A program made the position numbers and the translations under genes. Source: Thiomicrospira sp. UBA5634 (GTDB taxonomy: Bacteria; Pseudomonadota; Gammaproteobacteria; Thiomicrospirales; Thiomicrospiraceae). Taken from it: DNA of 7,210 bases. The notes below the pieces were generated by a model. The model ran no database searches, was not told the DNA's origin, and worked only from the letters and a program-made list of their open reading frames with translations. The stretch covers positions 1-7,210 of the forward strand of contig DIJW01000081.1 of assembly GCA_002421475.1 (NCBI GenBank), read 5' to 3'. Shown one piece after another: positions 938 to 7,210 of this stretch (position 1 is the first letter of the stretch; the number at the start of each line of letters is the position of its first letter).

Positions 938-1561
938 ATGGCTTTTTATATGTCAAACAATCCGTTATACGGTTTTATAATCCGCTACAGCCTGGCTTTT
1001 ATGCGTGCGCAAAATATCTTTCAACAACGCGTTGGCCAAACGATTGCCTGGGGCGCATTAACCCTGGTGTTACTTACTACCTTTGCGGTTTTTTTACGTT
1101 ATGCGTTTGGTTTTAGTAACGCTAAACTCGATGAAAGTTTGCTCTACAATCACGCATTATTATTTATGCTCGGGATCGCGTACACCTATCAACAAAACCA
1201 ACATGTGCGCGTTGATGTGTTTTATGCGCGCTTAAGCGCCAACCACCAGGCCTGGATTAATTTAATCGGTGCAACGCTATTGGTATTGCCGGTAATGGGT
1301 TTTATTTTATGGTCAGGCTGGGACTACGTTGCCGCGAGCTGGGCAGTGCAAGAACGTTCGGCGGATGCCTCCGGCCTGGCGTATGTGTACCTTTTGAAAA
1401 GCGTTATTTTAATCAGTGCAGGCCTGGTGATTTTGCAAACGCTGGCGCTGATTGTGCAATATAGTTTGCAGTTGTTTGCGCCACACGCGTTGCAAATGGA
1501 CGCCTGTGCCGAAGCGTTTTACGACAACTCCGAAAAATCAACCACCGGCGGAGGCGTTTAA
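938..1561 (+). CDS. dctQ: TRAP transporter small permease subunit (DctQ family)
   Basis: Small membrane subunit of a tripartite ATP-independent periplasmic (TRAP) transporter; it packs against the large permease DctM and helps dock the substrate-loaded binding protein. Four membrane segments are visible (about residues 36-56, 68-84, 107-127, 151-176). Family marks are the arginine at the end of helix 1 (FLRYAFG, 52-58) and HVRVDVFYARLS (89-100). The pattern resembles the mannitol/chloroaromatic (FcbT2/TakQ-like) branch. The start is uncertain: ATGs at 938, 950 and 1001 are in frame and none has a clear Shine-Dalgarno site. The ATG at 1001 would give 186 residues, which fits the family well. 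dctM begins one base after the stop. Two copies of the iterated palindrome lie inside the gene, encoding H-Q-A-W and A-G-L-V. The substrate is not deducible; organic acids or 2-oxo acids are likely by family. Confidence 0.88.
   Translation: MAFYMSNNPLYGFIIRYSLAFMRAQNIFQQRVGQTIAWGALTLVLLTTFAVFLRYAFGFSNAKLDESLLYNHALLFMLGIAYTYQQNQHVRVDVFYARLSANHQAWINLIGATLLVLPVMGFILWSGWDYVAASWAVQERSADASGLAYVYLLKSVILISAGLVILQTLALIVQYSLQLFAPHALQMDACAEAFYDNSEKSTTGGGV
1246..1255. repeat. Iterated palindrome copy, CCAGGCCTGG (11 of 12)
   Basis: The sequence reads ACCAGGCCTGGA from 1245, one base short of the full ACCAGGCCTGGT. It lies in dctQ and is read as H-Q-A-W (residues 103-106), the codon phase shared only with the copy at 3285. 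Confidence 0.8.
1419..1428. repeat. Iterated palindrome copy, CAGGCCTGGT
   Basis: This copy has lost the two outer left bases (G-CAGGCCTGGT-G). It lies in dctQ and is read as A-G-L-V, where Ala replaces the Pro of full copies. Confidence 0.7.
1550..1554 (+). promoter_or_regulatory. Ribosome-binding site of dctM
   Basis: GGAGG lies eight bases before the ATG at 1563, inside the last codons of dctQ. It fixes the dctM start at 1563 rather than the upstream in-frame ATG at 1452, which would overlap dctQ by about 110 bases and add 37 residues unlike the family. The arrangement suggests translational coupling of the two permease subunits. Confidence 0.85.
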
Positions 1562-1562
1562 T

Positions 1563-2939
1563 ATGGAATGGCTCGCTTTGGTGTTATTTGGCTTAGTGTT
1601 GATTGCGTTGATGATCGGCTTTCCGGTGGCGTTTACGCTGGCCGGGGTATCGTTATTATTCGGTTTAATCGCCGCCGCTTTCGGCGTGTTTGACATGGCG
1701 TTTTTGCACAGTATTCCCAGCCGTATTTACTCGATCATGACCAATAGCAGCCTGATGGCCGTGCCATTGTTTATTTTTATGGGACTCATGTTGGAAAAGT
1801 CCAGAATTGCTGATCAGTTGCTGCTGACATTAGCCGAAGTGTTCCAAGGTGTGCGCGGTGGATTGGGTATTGCAGTGATTTTAGTCGGCGCATTATTAGC
1901 CGCCAGCACAGGCCTGGTGGGCGCGACCGTGGTAATGATGGGCTTGCTCGCATTACCAACCATGCTCAAACAGGGTTACGATCCCAAACTGGCCTCCGGT
2001 CTGATTTGTGCCTCCGGCAGTTTAGGCCAAATTATCCCGCCGTCGATTATTCTGATTCTACTCGCCGATGTGTTATCCAACGCCTATCAACAAGCACAAC
2101 TTAAACAAGGCATTTTCGCCCCCGAAACCATTTCAGTCGGCGATTTATTTGCCGGGGCGTTGATACCAGGCCTGGTGCTAGTCGGTTTGTACCTGCTTTA
2201 TATGGTTTTTGTGGCGATTTTTCAGCCACAACGCGCGCCGGCGTTTAAGGCAGAAATCACAGACCAGCAACCAGGCCTGGTGGTGCGTGTTATCCACAGT
2301 TTATTGCCGCCTTTAGCATTGATTTTAATTGTACTCGGCTCAATTATCGCCGGTTTGGCTACACCAACCGAGGCCGGCGCGCTCGGCGCTTTAGGCGCAT
2401 TACTGCTTGCATTAGGCAAACGTCAACTCAGTTTAACCACGCTGAAAAACGTGATGCAAAGCACACTCAAAATCAGCAGCATGATTTTCTTTATTTTTAT
2501 CGGTGCGGTGTTTTTTTCGTTGGTGTTTCGCGGTCTCGGTGGCGACGACCTCGTACATAACTTACTTGAAGACTTACCAGGCGGGGTATTTACCGCGATG
2601 TTATTGGTAATGGTGTTTTTATTTGTGCTCGGTTTCTTTTTAGACTTTATCGAAATCACCTATGTGGTGGTACCGATTGTCGCGCCGATTTTATTGATGA
2701 TGGGGGTTGATCCGATTTGGCTGGGCATTATGATTGCGATTAACCTGCAAACCGCGTTTCTGACACCGCCGTTTGGTTTTGCATTGTTTTATCTGCGCGG
2801 CGTGGCAACGGACGCACTCAATACCATCGACATTTATCGCGGTGTATGGCCGTTTATTGGGTTACAACTGCTGATGTTGGCAATTTTAGCCTTCTGGCCA
2901 AGCTTGGCGACTTGGTTGCCAAAAGCGCTTTACGGCTAA
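1563..2939 (+). CDS. dctM: TRAP transporter large permease subunit (DctM family)
   Basis: Large, transport-carrying subunit of a TRAP importer (ion transporter superfamily), which moves the substrate across the inner membrane with sodium ions. The 458-residue product is almost entirely hydrophobic helices, in line with the family. Recognisable pieces are the start MEWLALVLFG, LMAVPLFIFMGLMLE (64-78), the first hairpin and unwound region ASGSLGQIIPPSI (150-162), the second-half counterpart GLATPTEAGALGA (264-276), LDFIEITYVVVPI (360-372) and QTAFLTPPFGFAL (396-408). The longer linker around residues 176-195 and the overall pattern match the mannitol/chloroaromatic (FcbT3/TakM-like) branch. No periplasmic binding protein gene is next to it, so the transporter needs one from elsewhere. 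Three palindrome copies lie within the gene. chrA follows after 41 bases. Confidence 0.95.
   Translation: MEWLALVLFGLVLIALMIGFPVAFTLAGVSLLFGLIAAAFGVFDMAFLHSIPSRIYSIMTNSSLMAVPLFIFMGLMLEKSRIADQLLLTLAEVFQGVRGGLGIAVILVGALLAASTGLVGATVVMMGLLALPTMLKQGYDPKLASGLICASGSLGQIIPPSIILILLADVLSNAYQQAQLKQGIFAPETISVGDLFAGALIPGLVLVGLYLLYMVFVAIFQPQRAPAFKAEITDQQPGLVVRVIHSLLPPLALILIVLGSIIAGLATPTEAGALGALGALLLALGKRQLSLTTLKNVMQSTLKISSMIFFIFIGAVFFSLVFRGLGGDDLVHNLLEDLPGGVFTAMLLVMVFLFVLGFFLDFIEITYVVVPIVAPILLMMGVDPIWLGIMIAINLQTAFLTPPFGFALFYLRGVATDALNTIDIYRGVWPFIGLQLLMLAILAFWPSLATWLPKALYG
1909..1918. repeat. Iterated palindrome copy, CAGGCCTGGT
   Basis: A copy reduced on its left side, in dctM, read as T-G-L-V (residues 116-119). 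Thr here, Ala in two other copies and Pro in the full ones show that the GGCCTGGTG part is kept while the first codon varies. Confidence 0.7.
2165..2176. repeat. Iterated palindrome copy, perfect ACCAGGCCTGGT
   Basis: Perfect 12-bp palindrome in dctM, read as P-G-L-V (residues 202-205) at the start of a membrane helix. The next perfect copy begins 105 bases further on. Confidence 0.9.
2270..2281. repeat. Iterated palindrome copy, perfect ACCAGGCCTGGT
   Basis: Perfect copy in dctM, read as P-G-L-V (237-240). It falls in the polar linker between the two halves of the permease (QQ-PGLV-VRV), a place with no evident structural need for this peptide. Confidence 0.9.
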
Positions 2940-2980
2940 TTCATGCATTTGTCATAAAGCCAATTTAAACTGGAAAACTT

Positions 2981-4129
2981 ATGGCAACTTTCAAACTTTT
3001 CAGCATTTTCTTACGTCTTGGCCTCACCTCATTTGGTGGGCCGATTGCGCATATCGGTTTTTTTCGGGCTGAGTTTGTCGAAAAACAGCGCTGGTTTGAT
3101 GACACGCAATTTGCACAATGGATTGCACTGTGTCATGCACTTCCCGGCCCTTCCAGCTCACAACTGGGTTTTCTGATTGGTTATCAACGTGGCGGTTGGT
3201 CGGGCGCTATCGCAGCATTTATCGGTTTTACTTTGCCTTCTGCTTTAATCATGACGGCATTGGCTTATGGTTGGTTTGCTTACCACCAGGCCTGGTCGCA
3301 GATCATTCAAGCGCTATTAATTGTAGCTGCCGCCGTAGTGATTCACGCCACCTGGAGTATGGCGAAACAATTTTGCACACAATGGTATTTAGCTTTAATC
3401 GCTGTTTTTTGCGCACTCATTCTCGTGTTCTTCCCCTCGGTTTTGACCCCGATTGGATTATTGCTGGCATTGGGTTTAATCGGTCAGTTTTTTAAACCGC
3501 AAACATCCACCTTAATGCTGAGTTTGCCGCGCGTACCCGGCAAAAAACTCGCGCTGATTTTATTAATCACACCTTTGATATTACTGCTGTTGCTACCAGG
3601 CCTGGTGCAATGGTTACCATCGCTTAATTTATTCGACAAAGTGTTTCGCGCCGGCGCATTAGTGTTTGGCGGCGGTCATGTGGTATTACCCTATTTACAA
3701 CTTGAATTGGTTCTACCAGGCCTGGTGACAGAGTCCGCGTTTTTAAGCGGCTACGCCTTAGCGCAAACCTTACCGGGGCCGCTATTTAGTTTCGCCAGCT
3801 ATTTAGGCGCTTTAACCCAAGGCTGGATCGGTGCGGTGGTGGCGACTGTGGCAATATTTTTGGCCGGATTAATGTGGATTATCGGCATCTTGCCGTTTTA
3901 TCAAAGTCTGCTAAACCAACCACGCTTTCAAGCAGGCCTGGTGGCGATTCAAGCCGGAGTGGTGGGATTCCTGCTGGCGGCATTAATCAACCCGATTTTG
4001 CCGCATGCGCTGACTGATTGGTTAAGTGTGGCAGTTATGCTAATAAACCTAGCGTTACTTTTTCTATTTAGATTTTCGATTATCTGGCTGATTACCCTAA
4101 ACCTGATCATCTATGGCCTTATCTTTTAA
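2981..4129 (+). CDS. chrA: Chromate transporter, long two-domain ChrA type
   Basis: Inner-membrane protein of the CHR superfamily; characterised members expel chromate from the cytoplasm using the membrane potential. The 382-residue product holds both CHR domains. The N-terminal half has RLGLTSFGGPIAHIGFF (12-28), the conserved FVEKQRWFD (32-40) and LCHALPGPSSSQLGF (50-64). The C-terminal half repeats the scheme with FRAGALVFGGGHVVLP (222-237) and ALAQTLPGPLFSF (259-271). Both PGP signatures and both GG loops are present, so it looks functional. GGAAAA about six bases before the ATG is a modest ribosome-binding site. The gene lies 41 bases after dctM on the same strand with no terminator between them, so joint transcription is likely. 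No chromate regulator (ChrB-like) is nearby, and many proteins of this family have never been tested, so the substrate is a family-level inference. Four palindrome copies lie within the gene. Confidence 0.93.
   Translation: MATFKLFSIFLRLGLTSFGGPIAHIGFFRAEFVEKQRWFDDTQFAQWIALCHALPGPSSSQLGFLIGYQRGGWSGAIAAFIGFTLPSALIMTALAYGWFAYHQAWSQIIQALLIVAAAVVIHATWSMAKQFCTQWYLALIAVFCALILVFFPSVLTPIGLLLALGLIGQFFKPQTSTLMLSLPRVPGKKLALILLITPLILLLLLPGLVQWLPSLNLFDKVFRAGALVFGGGHVVLPYLQLELVLPGLVTESAFLSGYALAQTLPGPLFSFASYLGALTQGWIGAVVATVAIFLAGLMWIIGILPFYQSLLNQPRFQAGLVAIQAGVVGFLLAALINPILPHALTDWLSVAVMLINLALLFLFRFSIIWLITLNLIIYGLIF
3285..3296. repeat. Iterated palindrome copy, perfect ACCAGGCCTGGT, second codon phase
   Basis: Perfect copy in chrA, shifted one base against the codons compared with the P-G-L-V copies, so it reads H-Q-A-W (residues 102-105). 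It is a key case showing that DNA, not peptide, is conserved. Confidence 0.9.
3595..3606. repeat. Iterated palindrome copy, perfect ACCAGGCCTGGT
   Basis: Perfect copy in chrA, read as L-P-G-L-V (P at 206). It lies exactly 120 bases before the next copy and shares CT on its left and G on its right with it. Confidence 0.9.
3715..3726. repeat. Iterated palindrome copy, perfect ACCAGGCCTGGT
   Basis: Perfect copy in chrA, read as L-P-G-L-V (P at 246), between two membrane segments of the second CHR domain. Confidence 0.9.
3933..3942. repeat. Iterated palindrome copy, CAGGCCTGGT
   Basis: Left-reduced copy near the end of chrA, read as A-G-L-V (residues 318-321). It is the last copy before the intergenic region and ATPase island, which have none. 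Confidence 0.7.
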
Positions 4130-4142
4130 ATAAACACCCAAT

Positions 4143-4166
4143 AAAAAATCCGCCAAACGGCGGTTT
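4143..4166. terminator. Intrinsic terminator between convergent genes
   Basis: A five-base GC stem, CCGCC (4150-4154) and GGCGG (4159-4163), closes an AAAC loop. On the plus strand it is followed by only TTT, about 20 bases after the chrA stop. On the minus strand it is followed by a run of six Ts (plus-strand As at 4143-4148), the better terminator. It therefore probably ends chrA and also minus-strand transcription. It lies about 150 bases beyond the ATPase stop, so it may have served eamA before the ATPase arrived. Confidence 0.75.
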
Positions 4167-4176
4167 AGGCTAAACC
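4162..4176. repeat. Short inverted repeat next to the terminator
   Basis: GGTTTA (4162-4167) and TAAACC (4171-4176) around a GGC loop, overlapping the terminator's last bases. The inner TTAGGCT (4165-4171) also pairs with AGCCTAA (4194-4200), so alternative folds are possible. No function is assigned. Confidence 0.5.
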
Positions 4177-4186
4177 TGACCAAAGA

Positions 4187-4246
4187 TAAAACCAGCCTAA
4201 CTATGCTAGTTTTACTTAAAAATCAACAACAAAAGTAAAACTAAGC
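4187..4246. repeat. Nested inverted repeats downstream of the ATPase
   Basis: The main hairpin has perfect 11-base arms, TAGTTTTACTT (4207-4217) and AAGTAAAACTA (4233-4243), with a 15-base AT-rich loop; an outer GC pair on each side extends it past one bulged A. The same left arm can pair with TAAAAC (4187-4192) or AACTA (4199-4203), giving competing hairpins. No T-run follows on either strand, so it is not a plain terminator. The remaining gap to 4310 shows no gene. It may be the acquired ATPase unit's own 3' end or a recombination scar. Confidence 0.55.
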
Positions 4247-4310
4247 GCGACCTCTAAATCGTCAAATATCAAACTGTGCGATACAAACAAACCGTGCATC
4301 TGAGAACATT

Positions 4311-6119
4311 TTAACTATTAATTAAGGTTTCTATGATGTCAAAAACTACAACGAAACCGGAAAAATCTCCGGTTGAACCATTGTTACAAAGCCAACTACA
4401 CATATTTCCTTTTTCATCTCTATTTACAGACTTTGAAGCTGGAATAATTTTCTGTACGCCACGAACTCTTTCCGAAGATGCGTTTTGAGTATCAATGTAG
4501 TGAGGGTTTTCGTTTTCAATCCTCTCAATAGTATTTGCCGAAAATAGGTTCTCTATACCTTTAGTGATAGGGTTCTCGTTTACAGTTGGCAACACTCGTT
4601 TGAACACTAAGTTTTTCTGATCATCCTGCTTGTGCGTATCACAGTCGTATAAAAGTATTATTTTATTTGGAACAACTTCTGAAATTGAGTTGTTATAACT
4701 CTTCCAAATTTTATCGAGGTTTCCATAACCAACAGCATCTTTTAACTCAACCCTATCTAACACATCTCTTTTATCAAGAATCTCTGCAGCTTTTTGAAGG
4801 TATCGAATGTCATAATCACCCTCAACAAACACTATCGGCTTTGAGTGTAATTTTATTTCAGCAAATATTTCTTCTCGATGTTTTGTAGTTTCTTTAAAAG
4901 CTTCATATGCAGCTATGAACTCTGAAAAATCATTTGCTACAACCTTTTCGCCATTGGGTAAATTTATTATTTCAAAACCATCTTCCCCAAACTCCTGTTC
5001 CATACCAAGAAGGAATAGCGGAGCGTGTGAGGTAACTATAAATTGAACATTAGGGAATGAGCTAATCAGCTTAGGCAAGACTTCTTTCTGGTGTATTGCA
5101 TGAAGGTGGGCATCAATTTCGTCAATTATTACGATCCCTTTTATATCGTTGAGAGTATTAAACTCTCCTTCGGAAAGATCATAATCCCTAATGATCGAAA
5201 TAAATAAATTTATTAGTTGCACCTCACCTGTCGATAGCTGAAATAAATTTGGTACCCAAACTTTTTCGTCCTTCATAACAGATATTTGCCGTTTTTGTCT
5301 TCTTCCAGCCCCGAGTCTAATACTTCCTTCTTCATCCAATATTACCCGTATAACCTGTAAGACAGCGTCATAAATATTCGTGCTTTGTCCCCGATAGCCA
5401 GTAAAGACAGAAACCAAAGTCGGATTAGGACTTCCCTCTAGGGCGATTGAAGTCTGATTTGTTTGGATATCATATACTTGTCTATCAAATATTAGATCAA
5501 GCAACCAATTGATATTATTTTTAAGCGGCGATGCGCAGATAATGTCCCGATTCGAATATCCAGTAATTCTTTTCAGGTCGGTATAGCTGGCTTTCGATTT
5601 TAAATGCGTTAAGTTTAACCATGCAGGTTCTTCAAATCTGTTAACCGGAAAATACAAGCAACATTGCTTCTTAAATATTTGCTTTGTGCTGTCTGAGTTT
5701 CCTTTAAAGGAAGAAACAAAATGCGAGCTTTCCGCGGAAGGTATCTGATTCCATTCTGACCTAGGAGCTGTGTAACCTAGCTTTTCTTCAAAGTTTGCTC
5801 TTGAAAGTGCAAGCTGCCACTCTTGAACTTTTTCTCCTGATTCAAACTCTACGCTTGAAAACGAATAAGACTCTCCAGACTTTATGTAATCTGGGCTTCT
5901 ATACTTAAATACCTTACCCCTTTCAATTTCCACATCCTCATATACCTCTTGTTTACCAACCACAAGAGTGTTTACGAGATGCGCAAGAAGTATGCTTTTT
6001 CCAGAACCATTTTCGCCTACAATAATCAGTGGCTTAGGAATGTCACCATTTTTCGGAAACTCAATACATAATCCTGCTAGTGGGCCAACATTAACTATTT
6101 CGACTTTTTTAAATAACAT
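4311..6119 (-). CDS. OLD-like ABC ATPase with C-terminal TOPRIM nuclease domain
   Basis: A cytoplasmic 602-residue protein. The ATPase part has Walker A GENGSGKS (35-42), an ABC signature-like LSTGE (295-299), Walker B GIVIIDEIDAHLH (328-340, catalytic Glu 334) and the switch-histidine strand IVTSHAPLFL (361-370). After about residue 425 comes a TOPRIM-type domain: IVFVEGDYDIRYL (429-441, Glu 433) and ILLYDCDTHK (488-497, Asp 492 and Asp 494), then KGIENLFS and a conserved-looking C-terminal tail. This order is that of OLD-family nucleases, several of which (P4 OLD, GajA) act in phage defence. The ATPase here has no GajB-like helicase neighbour, so it is not Gabija. Base composition is clearly AT-richer than the flanking genes and the host palindrome is absent, pointing to horizontal transfer. 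A weak AGAG lies nine bases before the ATG. The gene follows eamA in the same direction. Defence is an inference; DNA repair is the alternative. Confidence 0.9.
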   Translation of the reverse strand: MLFKKVEIVNVGPLAGLCIEFPKNGDIPKPLIIVGENGSGKSILLAHLVNTLVVGKQEVYEDVEIERGKVFKYRSPDYIKSGESYSFSSVEFESGEKVQEWQLALSRANFEEKLGYTAPRSEWNQIPSAESSHFVSSFKGNSDSTKQIFKKQCCLYFPVNRFEEPAWLNLTHLKSKASYTDLKRITGYSNRDIICASPLKNNINWLLDLIFDRQVYDIQTNQTSIALEGSPNPTLVSVFTGYRGQSTNIYDAVLQVIRVILDEEGSIRLGAGRRQKRQISVMKDEKVWVPNLFQLSTGEVQLINLFISIIRDYDLSEGEFNTLNDIKGIVIIDEIDAHLHAIHQKEVLPKLISSFPNVQFIVTSHAPLFLLGMEQEFGEDGFEIINLPNGEKVVANDFSEFIAAYEAFKETTKHREEIFAEIKLHSKPIVFVEGDYDIRYLQKAAEILDKRDVLDRVELKDAVGYGNLDKIWKSYNNSISEVVPNKIILLYDCDTHKQDDQKNLVFKRVLPTVNENPITKGIENLFSANTIERIENENPHYIDTQNASSERVRGVQKIIPASKSVNRDEKGNMCSWLCNNGSTGDFSGFVVVFDIIETLINS

Positions 6120-6134
6120 ATTTGTTTGCTCTAT

Positions 6135-6245
6135 TTATTTACGAATATTTATATGGCGATCAACTTCAGTAGTGTCGTATTTAGAATGCAATTCCCGTTC
6201 TGCATCTCCTCCATTAACAGAAGTTTTCTCGTAAAAATCACTCAC
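6135..6245 (-). CDS. Possible small ORF (36 residues) just upstream of the ATPase
   Basis: A GTG-initiated frame of 36 codons ending 15 bases before the ATPase ATG; an in-frame TTG at 6251 is an alternative start. The product starts with SDFYEKTSVNGGDAERE after the initiator, ends in VDRHINIRK, and is strongly charged with no membrane segment. GAAG abuts the GTG, which is too close for a normal ribosome-binding site. The codons look ordinary, and the position suggests either a small partner of the ATPase, a leader peptide coupling its translation, or the remnant of a longer gene. I do not recognise the protein. A spurious ORF remains quite possible. Confidence 0.35.
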   Translation of the reverse strand: MSDFYEKTSVNGGDAERELHSKYDTTEVDRHINIRK

Positions 6246-6288
6246 CTTCAAGTCTTAACGAATACGCAGATTACAGCATTTTACACAT
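6246..6288 (-). promoter_or_regulatory. Short gap between eamA and the ATPase unit, possible weak promoter
   Basis: Read on the minus strand, TAAAAT (plus 6278-6283) lies six bases past the eamA stop and could serve as a -10 box for the small ORF and ATPase. The matching -35 position falls on TTTGCT within the last eamA codons, only three of six consensus bases. No hairpin terminator ends eamA here, so readthrough from eamA into the ATPase is the simpler expectation. Confidence 0.25.
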
Positions 6289-7210
6289 TCAACCCTTATT
6301 AGCAAAACCAGCTTTTTTAGTTTGCTTTAACGTCAACACCCCCACCCCGATCATCACCAAGGCAAAGCCGAACAAGTGCGGCAGGGTGAAGGGTTCGGCG
6401 AGAATCCATACCGCCAGCACAATGGTAAATACCGGGCCTAAACTGCCGATAATACCGGTTTGCGCCGGGCCAAGGCGCGCAATTGCTTCACTGATCATAA
6501 AACTCGGAATGACGGTGCTGAAAATGGCGAGCAAAAACGTCCATAATAAAATGAGTTCATTCAGCACAAATGCTGCCCAATCTAACGTGACGCCAAAATA
6601 CACAATCACCCACACGCAGGCGGCGATCATCGCCCAGCTGGTAAACCATAAACTGCCGACTTGCGCGATCAGTTCTCGGCTAAACAACACATAAAACGCA
6701 AAACTGAATGCAGCAAGCGCCACCAGAAACGTCCCCCACGCGACGCCATCGCCACTCAAGCTGGCTTCTTGGGCGTAAATCATCCAAATGCCTACGTAAG
6801 ACAACAGCAAGGCGAAAATGATTTTGCGCGTTAGCGGTTGTTTAAAAAACAACGCCCCCAAGATCGCCACCATAATCGGATAGGTAAATAAGGTCAGGCG
6901 TTCGAGCTGGGCGGAAATGAGTTCCAACCCCATTAGGTCTAACCACGAAGAGACAAAATAACCGAGAAAACCCAAGCCGATCAGTTTCAGCCATACCAGG
7001 CCTGGTAGTTCGGCGGCTTTATAAGGATTCCGCTGCCACAACAAACATGCAATAAATGCATATACCGGCAATGCCATTAACATGCGCAGCACCATTACGC
7101 TGTCGGCATCCGAGCCGGCGGCATAAGCCAGTTTGATTAAAATAGACTTAATCGAAAATAACAGTGTGCCGCCGACCGCAAGGGCAAAACCTGTCCAAAA
7201 ATAATAGGGC
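6289..7210 (-). CDS. EamA-family (DMT superfamily) membrane exporter, 5' end outside window
   Basis: Drug/metabolite transporter of the inner membrane; relatives export amino acids, cysteine derivatives or other metabolites, and the substrate cannot be read from sequence. The frame is open from the window edge: upstream of the first in-frame ATG (7095) it continues as PYYFWTGFALAVGG and further into the first EamA helix, so the gene starts beyond 7210 and the ATG at 7095 is internal. About 306 residues are visible, nearly the usual family length, with ten hydrophobic segments in two EamA repeats. The second repeat shows the typical PAQTGIIGSLGPVFTI and ILAEPFTLPHLFGF near the end. The basic tail (KQTKKAGFANKG) fits a cytoplasmic C-terminus. 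One perfect palindrome copy lies inside, read as P-G-L-V. The gene is convergent with chrA and codirectional with the ATPase. Confidence 0.92.
   Translation of the reverse strand, partial: PYYFWTGFALAVGGTLLFSIKSILIKLAYAAGSDADSVMVLRMLMALPVYAFIACLLWQRNPYKAAELPGLVWLKLIGLGFLGYFVSSWLDLMGLELISAQLERLTLFTYPIMVAILGALFFKQPLTRKIIFALLLSYVGIWMIYAQEASLSGDGVAWGTFLVALAAFSFAFYVLFSRELIAQVGSLWFTSWAMIAACVWVIVYFGVTLDWAAFVLNELILLWTFLLAIFSTVIPSFMISEAIARLGPAQTGIIGSLGPVFTIVLAVWILAEPFTLPHLFGFALVMIGVGVLTLKQTKKAGFANKG
6995..7006. repeat. Iterated palindrome copy, perfect ACCAGGCCTGGT, in a minus-strand gene
   Basis: The only copy right of the ATPase island, read on the minus strand in eamA as L-P-G-L-V-W. It shows the word is used on both sides of the island and in genes of either orientation. 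Confidence 0.9.

Follow-up and report, generated by a model that had tools for sequence, protein, structure and literature searches.

A palindromic 12-base word repeated throughout genomes of the Thiomicrospira family and its possible role in self-DNA uptake

The DNA analysed here (the window) is a 7,210-base stretch of Thiomicrospira sp. UBA5634 that makes up contig C214 of the draft genome G000 (2,007,832 bases, 83.8% complete). It encodes the two membrane subunits of a tripartite ATP-independent periplasmic (TRAP) transporter, a chromate-type transporter and an EamA transporter, and these genes carry repeated copies of the palindromic 12-mer ACCAGGCCTGGT (the word), whose inner 8-mer CAGGCCTG (the core) itself contains AGGCCT (Table 1). 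The window's DctM is 69 to 74% identical to its counterparts in Thiomicrospira, Thiomicrorhabdus and Hydrogenovibrio loci. A sequence-only reading of the window had listed six perfect copies, one copy matching 11 of 12 letters and three CAGGCCTGGT copies at 1419, 1909 and 3933; all were re-found in place, with the correction that 3931-3942 likewise matches 11 of 12 letters. Allowing up to two mismatches to ACCAGGCCTGGT, the window gives 11 matches, where shuffled sequences average 0.23 (maximum 2 across 200 shuffles); one of the 11, at 2576 (ACCAGGCGGGGT), is without the core. All ten AGGCCT in the window lie inside CAGGCCTG, and all ten lie within reading frames. The core density of the window (10 per 7,210 bases) is about 2.5 times that of the genome (1101 per 2,007,832 bases).

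Table 1. Copies of the word in the window and the genes that contain them
Feature	Coordinates	Strand	Sequence or profile match	Reading or content
DctQ, TRAP transporter small membrane subunit	938..1561	+	PF04290, 4.7e-22	2 words
Copy, 11 of 12	1245..1256		ACCAGGCCTGGA	read HQAW, in DctQ
Copy with core CAGGCCTG at 1419-1426	1417..1428		TGCAGGCCTGGT	read AGLV, in DctQ
DctM, TRAP transporter large membrane subunit	1563..2939	+	PF06808, 5.9e-76	3 words
Copy with core at 1909-1916	1907..1918		CACAGGCCTGGT	read TGLV, in DctM
Perfect copy	2165..2176		ACCAGGCCTGGT	read IPGLV, in DctM
Perfect copy	2270..2281		ACCAGGCCTGGT	read QPGLV, in DctM
Chromate-type transporter	2981..4129	+	PF02417, 5.5e-73	4 words
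Perfect copy	3285..3296		ACCAGGCCTGGT	read HQAW, in chromate-type transporter
Perfect copy	3595..3606		ACCAGGCCTGGT	read LPGLV, in chromate-type transporter
Perfect copy	3715..3726		ACCAGGCCTGGT	read LPGLV, in chromate-type transporter
Copy, 11 of 12	3931..3942		AGCAGGCCTGGT	read AGLV, in chromate-type transporter
EamA transporter, open at window end	6289..7209	-	PF00892, 7.4e-29	1 word
Perfect copy	6995..7006		ACCAGGCCTGGT	read LPGLV on - strand, in EamA transporter

The iteration extends throughout the genome. G000 holds 688 copies of ACCAGGCCTGGT and none of its reversed control, and 1101 copies of CAGGCCTG, that is, 548 per Mb or one core per about 1.8 kb. Against an order-3 Markov model, a 194-kb sample of G000 that includes the window has 71 copies of ACCAGGCCTGGT where 0.016 are expected, and a 400-kb sample of the genus member G001 has 129 where 0.06 are expected; the sampled 12-mer counts exceed expectation thousands-fold. 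Half of the contigs in the G000 sample were chosen from those already listed with the word, and the sample carries 0.58 cores per kb against 0.55 in the genome. The remaining leading 12-mers in both samples overlap the word, the next palindromic 12-mer reaching 2 copies in either, and the enriched octamers listed for the two genomes all overlap it as well; in the G001 sample, 91 of 102 CCTGGTGG lie within CAGGCCTGGTGG. Copies are present in all 20 stretches spread over G001, at 1 to 14 cores each. The earlier suggestion of a genome-wide word of the kind of the cyanobacterial highly iterated palindrome (HIP) HIP1 is borne out by these counts and by those in relatives, and the outcome that would have spoken against it, an enrichment confined to the window, was looked for and an excess across the genome found instead. 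As a perfect palindrome present at hundreds per Mb, the word has the form of a HIP, and it is strongly over-represented at the hundreds per Mb typical of DNA uptake sequences (DUS) and uptake signal sequences (USS); a study of Pasteurellaceae counts genomes as USS-bearing from a cut of 300 USS per Mb (PMC12616744).

The distribution of the word was followed in a family set of 62 genomes, which is the whole order (a single family) and has Thiomicrospira, Thiomicrorhabdus and Hydrogenovibrio as relatives. Counts of AMCAGGCCTGKT are bimodal, with 58-748 in 32 genomes, 0-4 in 28, and 17 and 20 in two, and a control word reaches at most 1. All nine genomes of the window's genus bear the word, each with 840 to 1128 copies of CAGGCCTG against 0 to 5 of the control GTCCGGAC. 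Outside the family, the 12-mer occurs 0 to 5 times in each of 365 gammaproteobacterial genomes (1 to 5 times in 81), these being the non-family part of a draw of 369 from the class, and among 80 dctM loci compared it is found in 5 of the 17 assigned to the family (13 copies in 299 kb) and in none of the 63 others (1.15 Mb). Within the sampled class, the enrichment is restricted to the Thiomicrospira family and, there, to about half of the genomes searched. Close relatives differ: genera g3 and g6 have hundreds of copies in some members and none in others, and, among congeners, G030, G032 and G034 have no 12-mer and 9 to 14 cores, G013 and G020 400 and 515 12-mers. In a ComEC protein tree of 34 members, genera with several rows stay together and at least 5 changes of word status are required; the tree was built quickly from this single gene and has some long branches. 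In 120 kb each of the word-less genomes G030, G032, G016 and G035, no replacement palindrome of comparable enrichment is present among the top words listed; the best is CGCGCGCG in G016 (10 copies, observed/expected ratio 6.5), and the other enriched words look like local or dispersed repeats.

Some further words were seen in single genomes. The word-less g6 genome G030 (L100, L207-L211) contains CCGCGG 54 times in 20 kb and, in its 120 kb, GGAGCGTGGA and CGGCTAGGTC 27-28 times, which look like long tandem or dispersed repeats. G020 (L097, L197-L201) has a second enriched word, GCGGCTTAGA, 19 times in 120 kb at an observed/expected ratio of about 360, and G031 (L092, L187-L191) is enriched in GTCATCCTGA (19 copies in 120 kb), unrelated to the palindrome. 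In the IMG/VR database, CACCAGGCCTGGTG was found in 20 contigs, 19 of which have one 12-mer in the stretches examined. Two stretches there reach host-like density: L246 1-12462 has four cores, three of them perfect 12-mers, and L243 1-14488 has four cores and one perfect 12-mer. They are possibly word-carrying viruses or proviruses, provirus edges, or mis-filed host DNA.

Across word-bearing lineages, the core CAGGCCTG is constant and the outer letters vary by lineage, as in the dialects of DUS and USS, the constancy of the core being partly by construction because the core was the search word. With clades taken from the ComEC tree, the ratio of 12-mers to 8-mers in genus g1 is 0.40-0.73 in one clade (G000, G001, G003, G004, G006 and G008) and 0.19-0.22 in the other (G002, G005 and G007). 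Elsewhere, it is 0.60-0.66 in G013 and G020, 0.19-0.30 in G017, G024 and G028, 0.02-0.03 in G019, G023 and G033, 0.71 in G011 and 0.49 in G031. Beside the core, G000 and G001 have GGT and then often G; G005 and G007 have G or C and then T; G011, G020 and G031 have GT followed by A-rich and T-rich letters; G028 has G and then T or C; and G019 and G023 have T, G or C and then T. Off-by-one variants fall mostly in the two outermost letters of each half (33 of 49 in G001, 23 of 30 in G000). One-mismatch forms number 49 in G001, where simulation gives 1.0, and 30 in G000, where it gives 0.3; two-mismatch forms number 29 (simulated 19) and 24 (simulated 6), and from three mismatches there is no excess; the same comparison finds no excess of mismatch forms in the word-less G016. 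Nearly all the AGGCCT excess in G000 and G001 sits in CAGGCCTG, and in G001 AGGCCT outside it does not exceed expectation (58 of 235; order-3 Markov expectation 72). AGGCCT is enriched overall in G019 (69 vs 22-26 expected) and G023 (83 vs 22-31), an enrichment that extends to copies flanked by C/G on a single side (21 and 26).

Each copy had been described as two abutting CCWGG sites, and a link to Dcm/EcoRII-type methylation and very-short-patch repair had been considered. This link is unsupported, and we rejected a Dcm/Vsr system: CCWGG lies outside the conserved part and is lacking in many cores, and neither a C5-methyltransferase nor Vsr is matched in the nine genomes of the genus. Cores without any CCWGG amount to 23 of 43 in G019, 22 of 46 in G023, 15 of 54 in G007, 9 of 53 in G005 and, from a small sample, 3 of 4 in G033, whereas every one of the 113 cores sampled in G000 and of the 177 in G001 has at least one; the abutting Dcm-type sites thus belong to some dialects only. 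Of the 14 word-bearing family genomes searched with the C5-methyltransferase profile PF00145, 13 have no match, the nine of the genus among them (five further word-bearing genomes lay outside this search); the profile matches in 2 of 22 family genomes, the word-less G015 and, as two short pieces at contig starts, G017. Vsr (PF03852) matches in 5 of the 62 family genomes and in none of the nine of the genus. For both profiles, the negatives in the genus come from a G000 that is 84% complete, but four other members are single-contig. PF01555 (6 of 16 word-bearing, 5 of 12 word-less genomes) and PF02086 (8 of 62 genomes; within the genus, of nine members, in G000 only) show no tracking of the word. 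The matching methyltransferase that is expected of a HIP was therefore not found in PF00145, PF01555 and PF02086, the families searched, PF02384 and others lying outside the search.

Counts by place rest on samples of about 5 to 20% of each genome and on gene calls by a simple script that extends starts upstream, so that some intergenic copies were probably counted as genic. In ten sampled genomes, 471 cores are genic and 154 intergenic, an intergenic density 2.73 times that of coding DNA, against 0.48, 0.50 and 0.53 for the control palindromes TGGCCA, CAGCTG and GGCGCC; G005 and G007 taken alone have no intergenic excess (0.42 and 0.43 per kb vs 0.44 and 0.45 genic, with 4 and 7 intergenic copies). 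By gap type, cores per kb fall from 2.19 in convergent through 0.86 in tandem to 0.43 in divergent gaps. Perfect arms of at least 18 bases are present in 37 of the 154 intergenic and 16 of the 471 genic copies. With z of -4.9 to -8.0, four intergenic copies picked for long arms form 11 to 17-bp stems with a GGCC loop; the window copy at 2165, in DctM, folds little better than shuffles (z -1.22). Gene-end hairpins, the trait of a terminator element, are seen in some of the intergenic copies, and three in four copies overall are genic. Within genes, the core is read as QAW (163), PGL (135), AGL (70), RP (46), QAC (29), TGL (18) or SGL (8; n=469). Cores are distributed along genes by fifths as 104, 95, 102, 79 and 91, and the 12-mers favour the first fifth (66 of 218), a lean that may be due to over-extended start calls. 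One G001 stretch, L146, has 1 core in 20 kb vs a mean of 8.8. The scan of its genes covered 10 of 29 called frames, and all 10 encode ribosomal proteins, SecY, EF-Tu or EF-G. The scarcity of the word in ribosomal-protein DNA was seen in this one stretch; three more G001 stretches are low in cores (3, 3 and 4).

The places of the word turn over. Of 18 G000 cores aligned to the G001 sample, 9 are at the same place, and the 18 aligned places differ by substitutions, three with short alignment gaps. None of 14 G000 cores is shared with G007, G028, G011, G030, G023 and G019 together, numbers that are small and include the word-less G030. At named loci, 3 of 5 cores are shared with L005, 1 of 3 with L006, L020 and L042, and none with the rest. 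Copy number is kept in the genus while places partly change, which suggests that the word itself, and not individual sites, is favoured. Spacing is not more even than random in 6 of the 10 sampled genomes, G000 and G001 included, and in G028 the spacing of 12-mers is random (coefficient of variation 1.04, among the 70 listed of 93). Some intergenic copies form doublets 17 to 28 bases apart, in G000 (L147 3073/3094, L157 3810/3832, L162 6720/6737) and in G001 (L132 5566/5590, L144 15182/15210); gaps of less than 60 bases show a weak excess (6 vs 3.2 expected in G000, 6 vs 4.1 in G001).

Self-DNA uptake via an over-represented word has been described in Neisseriaceae and Pasteurellaceae (PMC3630211). 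The words concerned have 9 to 12 bases and hundreds to thousands of copies per genome; DUS dialects follow phylogeny around a constant core, and DUS associate with terminators, as hairpins (PMC3630211). The present word is like DUS and USS in its density class, its lineage dialects around a fixed core and its word-free family members (PMC3630211, PMC2346458, PMC1939737, PMC7371117, PMC12616744), and further in its intergenic excess, its gene-end hairpins and the presence of competence genes. The competence machinery is there on the evidence of ComEC and DprA, the two genes searched. DprA is found in all 62 family genomes. ComEC was searched in 36 and found in 34, namely in all 19 that bear the word and in 15 of the 17 that lack it. 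As a trait that might separate word-bearing from word-less genomes, competence genes were rejected, the two being nearly universal. Unlike DUS, the word belongs to another bacterial family and comes with no ComP_DUS match, and its role in uptake is putative; it is also sparser in G000, with its 1.8 kb per core, than DUS at one per 400 to 1100 bp (PMC7371117). A prepilin scan of the sampled stretches gave three matches, all in one G028 cluster that looks like type II secretion pseudopilins.

Together, these features lead us to favour, tentatively, the reading that transformation has spread a palindromic self-DNA uptake word, of which ACCAGGCCTGGT is the form used in one lineage. What we put forward, with equal caution, is a function like that of uptake sequences, without claiming membership in DUS or USS. 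In the mechanism that we infer throughout, the competence pilus would have a surface DNA receptor with a preference for the word, fragments carrying it would enter cells and recombine more often, and molecular drive would spread and keep it where the gene product tolerates QAW, PGL/AGL or RP peptides. It would spread most readily between genes, where flanking bases would sometimes grow into gene-end hairpins; drift in receptor specificity would change a lineage's dialect, and loss of specificity would lose the word. The sequence-only reading had named both an uptake and a nucleoid protein, and the evidence leans toward uptake. Somewhat more doubtfully, these bacteria may have their own self-DNA uptake code. 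They would then be the third bacterial group with such a code, and theirs would be the first to rest on a palindromic word that is over-represented, with perhaps a dimeric or orientation-blind receptor reading CAGGCCTG plus the lineage's outer letters. If so, a fragment would be recognised from either end, and dialects would be gene-exchange barriers among sulfur-oxidising chemolithoautotrophs. Exact-word, HIP and uptake searches of the open-licence literature found no published report of this word in these bacteria.

Several observations weigh against an uptake role. The word is palindromic, unlike those of Neisseriaceae and Pasteurellaceae (PMC1939737). The ComP_DUS receptor (PF16732) has no match over the cut-off in the 62 family genomes. 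The predicted receptor in Pasteurellaceae is another minor pilin (PMC12616744), and the absence of PF16732 therefore bars filing the word as a DUS but does not bar the function. The literature searched gave no report of transformation in these genera, and ComEC and DprA, being about as common without the word, do not discriminate. Half of the aligned G000 cores are common to G001, so places are partly conserved, and in 4 of the 10 sampled genomes spacing is more even than random (p 0.005-0.03, uncorrected). Finally, the distribution is also compatible with other sequence-specific binders, whether under drive or under weak selection, and the arms of the gene-end hairpins also fit selection for terminators; uptake sequences themselves show no preference for the DNA downstream of genes according to PMC1939737 and an association with terminators according to PMC3630211.

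Given that no receptor was found and that competence genes are also present in word-less genomes, an intracellular binding protein stays a serious, if rather unlikely, rival. The word would then be the site of a dimeric protein of nucleoid organisation, recombination or repair, its palindrome two half-sites of a homodimer, with coverage every 1 to 3 kb selected and positions free to drift. A perfect palindrome suits reading by a dimer, and the turnover of positions, the presence in every G001 stretch sampled and the even spacing in four genomes fit; the enrichment at convergent gene ends, the depletion in divergent gaps, the scarcity in the ribosomal-protein stretch and the loss of the word in G030, G032 and G034, congeners of G013 and G020, are unexpected of a housekeeping site. 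SlmA, Noc and MatS sites are palindromic or near-palindromic, have 12 to 14 bases, are read by dimers, and occur at biased positions in tens of copies per genome, unlike the present word with its hundreds to a thousand copies. Like Chi (GCTGGTGG) and the FtsK-orienting polar sequences (KOPS), the word is short, frequent and genome-wide. Chi and KOPS are polar. The word is symmetric, and polar functions of their type therefore do not fit; moreover, every enriched octamer listed for G000 and G001 overlaps the word. Distinctly less probable is a HIP1-type word, in which, following Elhai's model, an inner sequence would be marked by an orphan methyltransferase and the palindrome would build up through methylation-directed repair; this includes the mixed case in which a methylated palindrome is recognised during uptake, as it is in Campylobacter jejuni. 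The form is that of HIP1 and the alternate HIPs, which are likewise perfect palindromes at hundreds per Mb, patchy in their clade, some relatives being without the word or with another, and with off-by-one variants at the outermost letters (Elhai 2015, PMC4390886), and the one-sided C/G enrichment of AGGCCT in G019 and G023 looks as if a shorter inner site were read. HIP1 itself is a different sequence of 8 bases, and HIP genomes generally carry a matching methyltransferase (PMC4390886), unlike the present ones, in which none of those searched tracks the word. Some HIP1-rich genomes lack the CGATCG methyltransferase (PMC4390886), so a missing enzyme is not fatal to a methylation origin; set against it are the near-absence of PF00145 from the word-bearing genomes searched, the failure of PF01555, PF02086 and Vsr to track the word, and AGGCCT outside CAGGCCTG in G001, which is not above expectation. 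The RAATTY site of C. jejuni is likewise a palindrome through which self-DNA is recognised (PMC10046745), the corresponding role here being putative. The mark there is an N6-methyl group set by CtsM on a 6-base site (PMC10046745), whereas the present word has 8 to 12 bases, is strongly over-represented and goes untracked by the methyltransferases searched.

The hairpins raise two further explanations. A spread transcription terminator element, with the hairpin as the selected feature, would account for a density in convergent gaps 5 times that in divergent ones and for the 11 to 17-bp stems of the four long-arm intergenic copies. It is highly unlikely in view of the 471 of 625 sampled cores that are genic, 455 of them without long arms, and of the weak fold of the window copy at 2165. 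Furthermore, the invariant GGCC would be the hairpin loop, and the loop is not the part that matters for termination. That a mobile repeat, REP-like (repetitive extragenic palindromic) or MITE-like (miniature inverted-repeat transposable element), has been inserting around the genome is scarcely credible: high copy number and intergenic hairpins would agree with it, but flanks beyond 12 to 14 bases differ, all 469 genic copies are read in one of the seven ways given above, and the enriched words listed for G000 or G001 contain no longer shared unit.

If the uptake reading of ACCAGGCCTGGT is true, sulfur-oxidising chemolithoautotrophs would have a palindromic word of their own, which would show that uptake codes have more than one origin and can be symmetric. 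Because close congeners differ in having gained or lost the word, comparison of their gene content should allow the receptor to be found. If the word does not serve uptake, it is still a HIP-like word whose expected methyltransferase was not found among the families searched, and it bears on what keeps HIPs.

Two genes in the window are without the word. One, at 1-861 on the + strand and open at the window start, encodes a GGDEF diguanylate cyclase (PF00990, 2.8e-51). The other, at 4311-6119 on the - strand between the chromate-type transporter and EamA genes, encodes a 602-aa AAA ATPase that matches the Pfam profile AAA_21 (1e-11) and the PADLOC profiles for PtuA (best 7.2e-32), and this PtuA-like gene is possibly a mobile defence gene.

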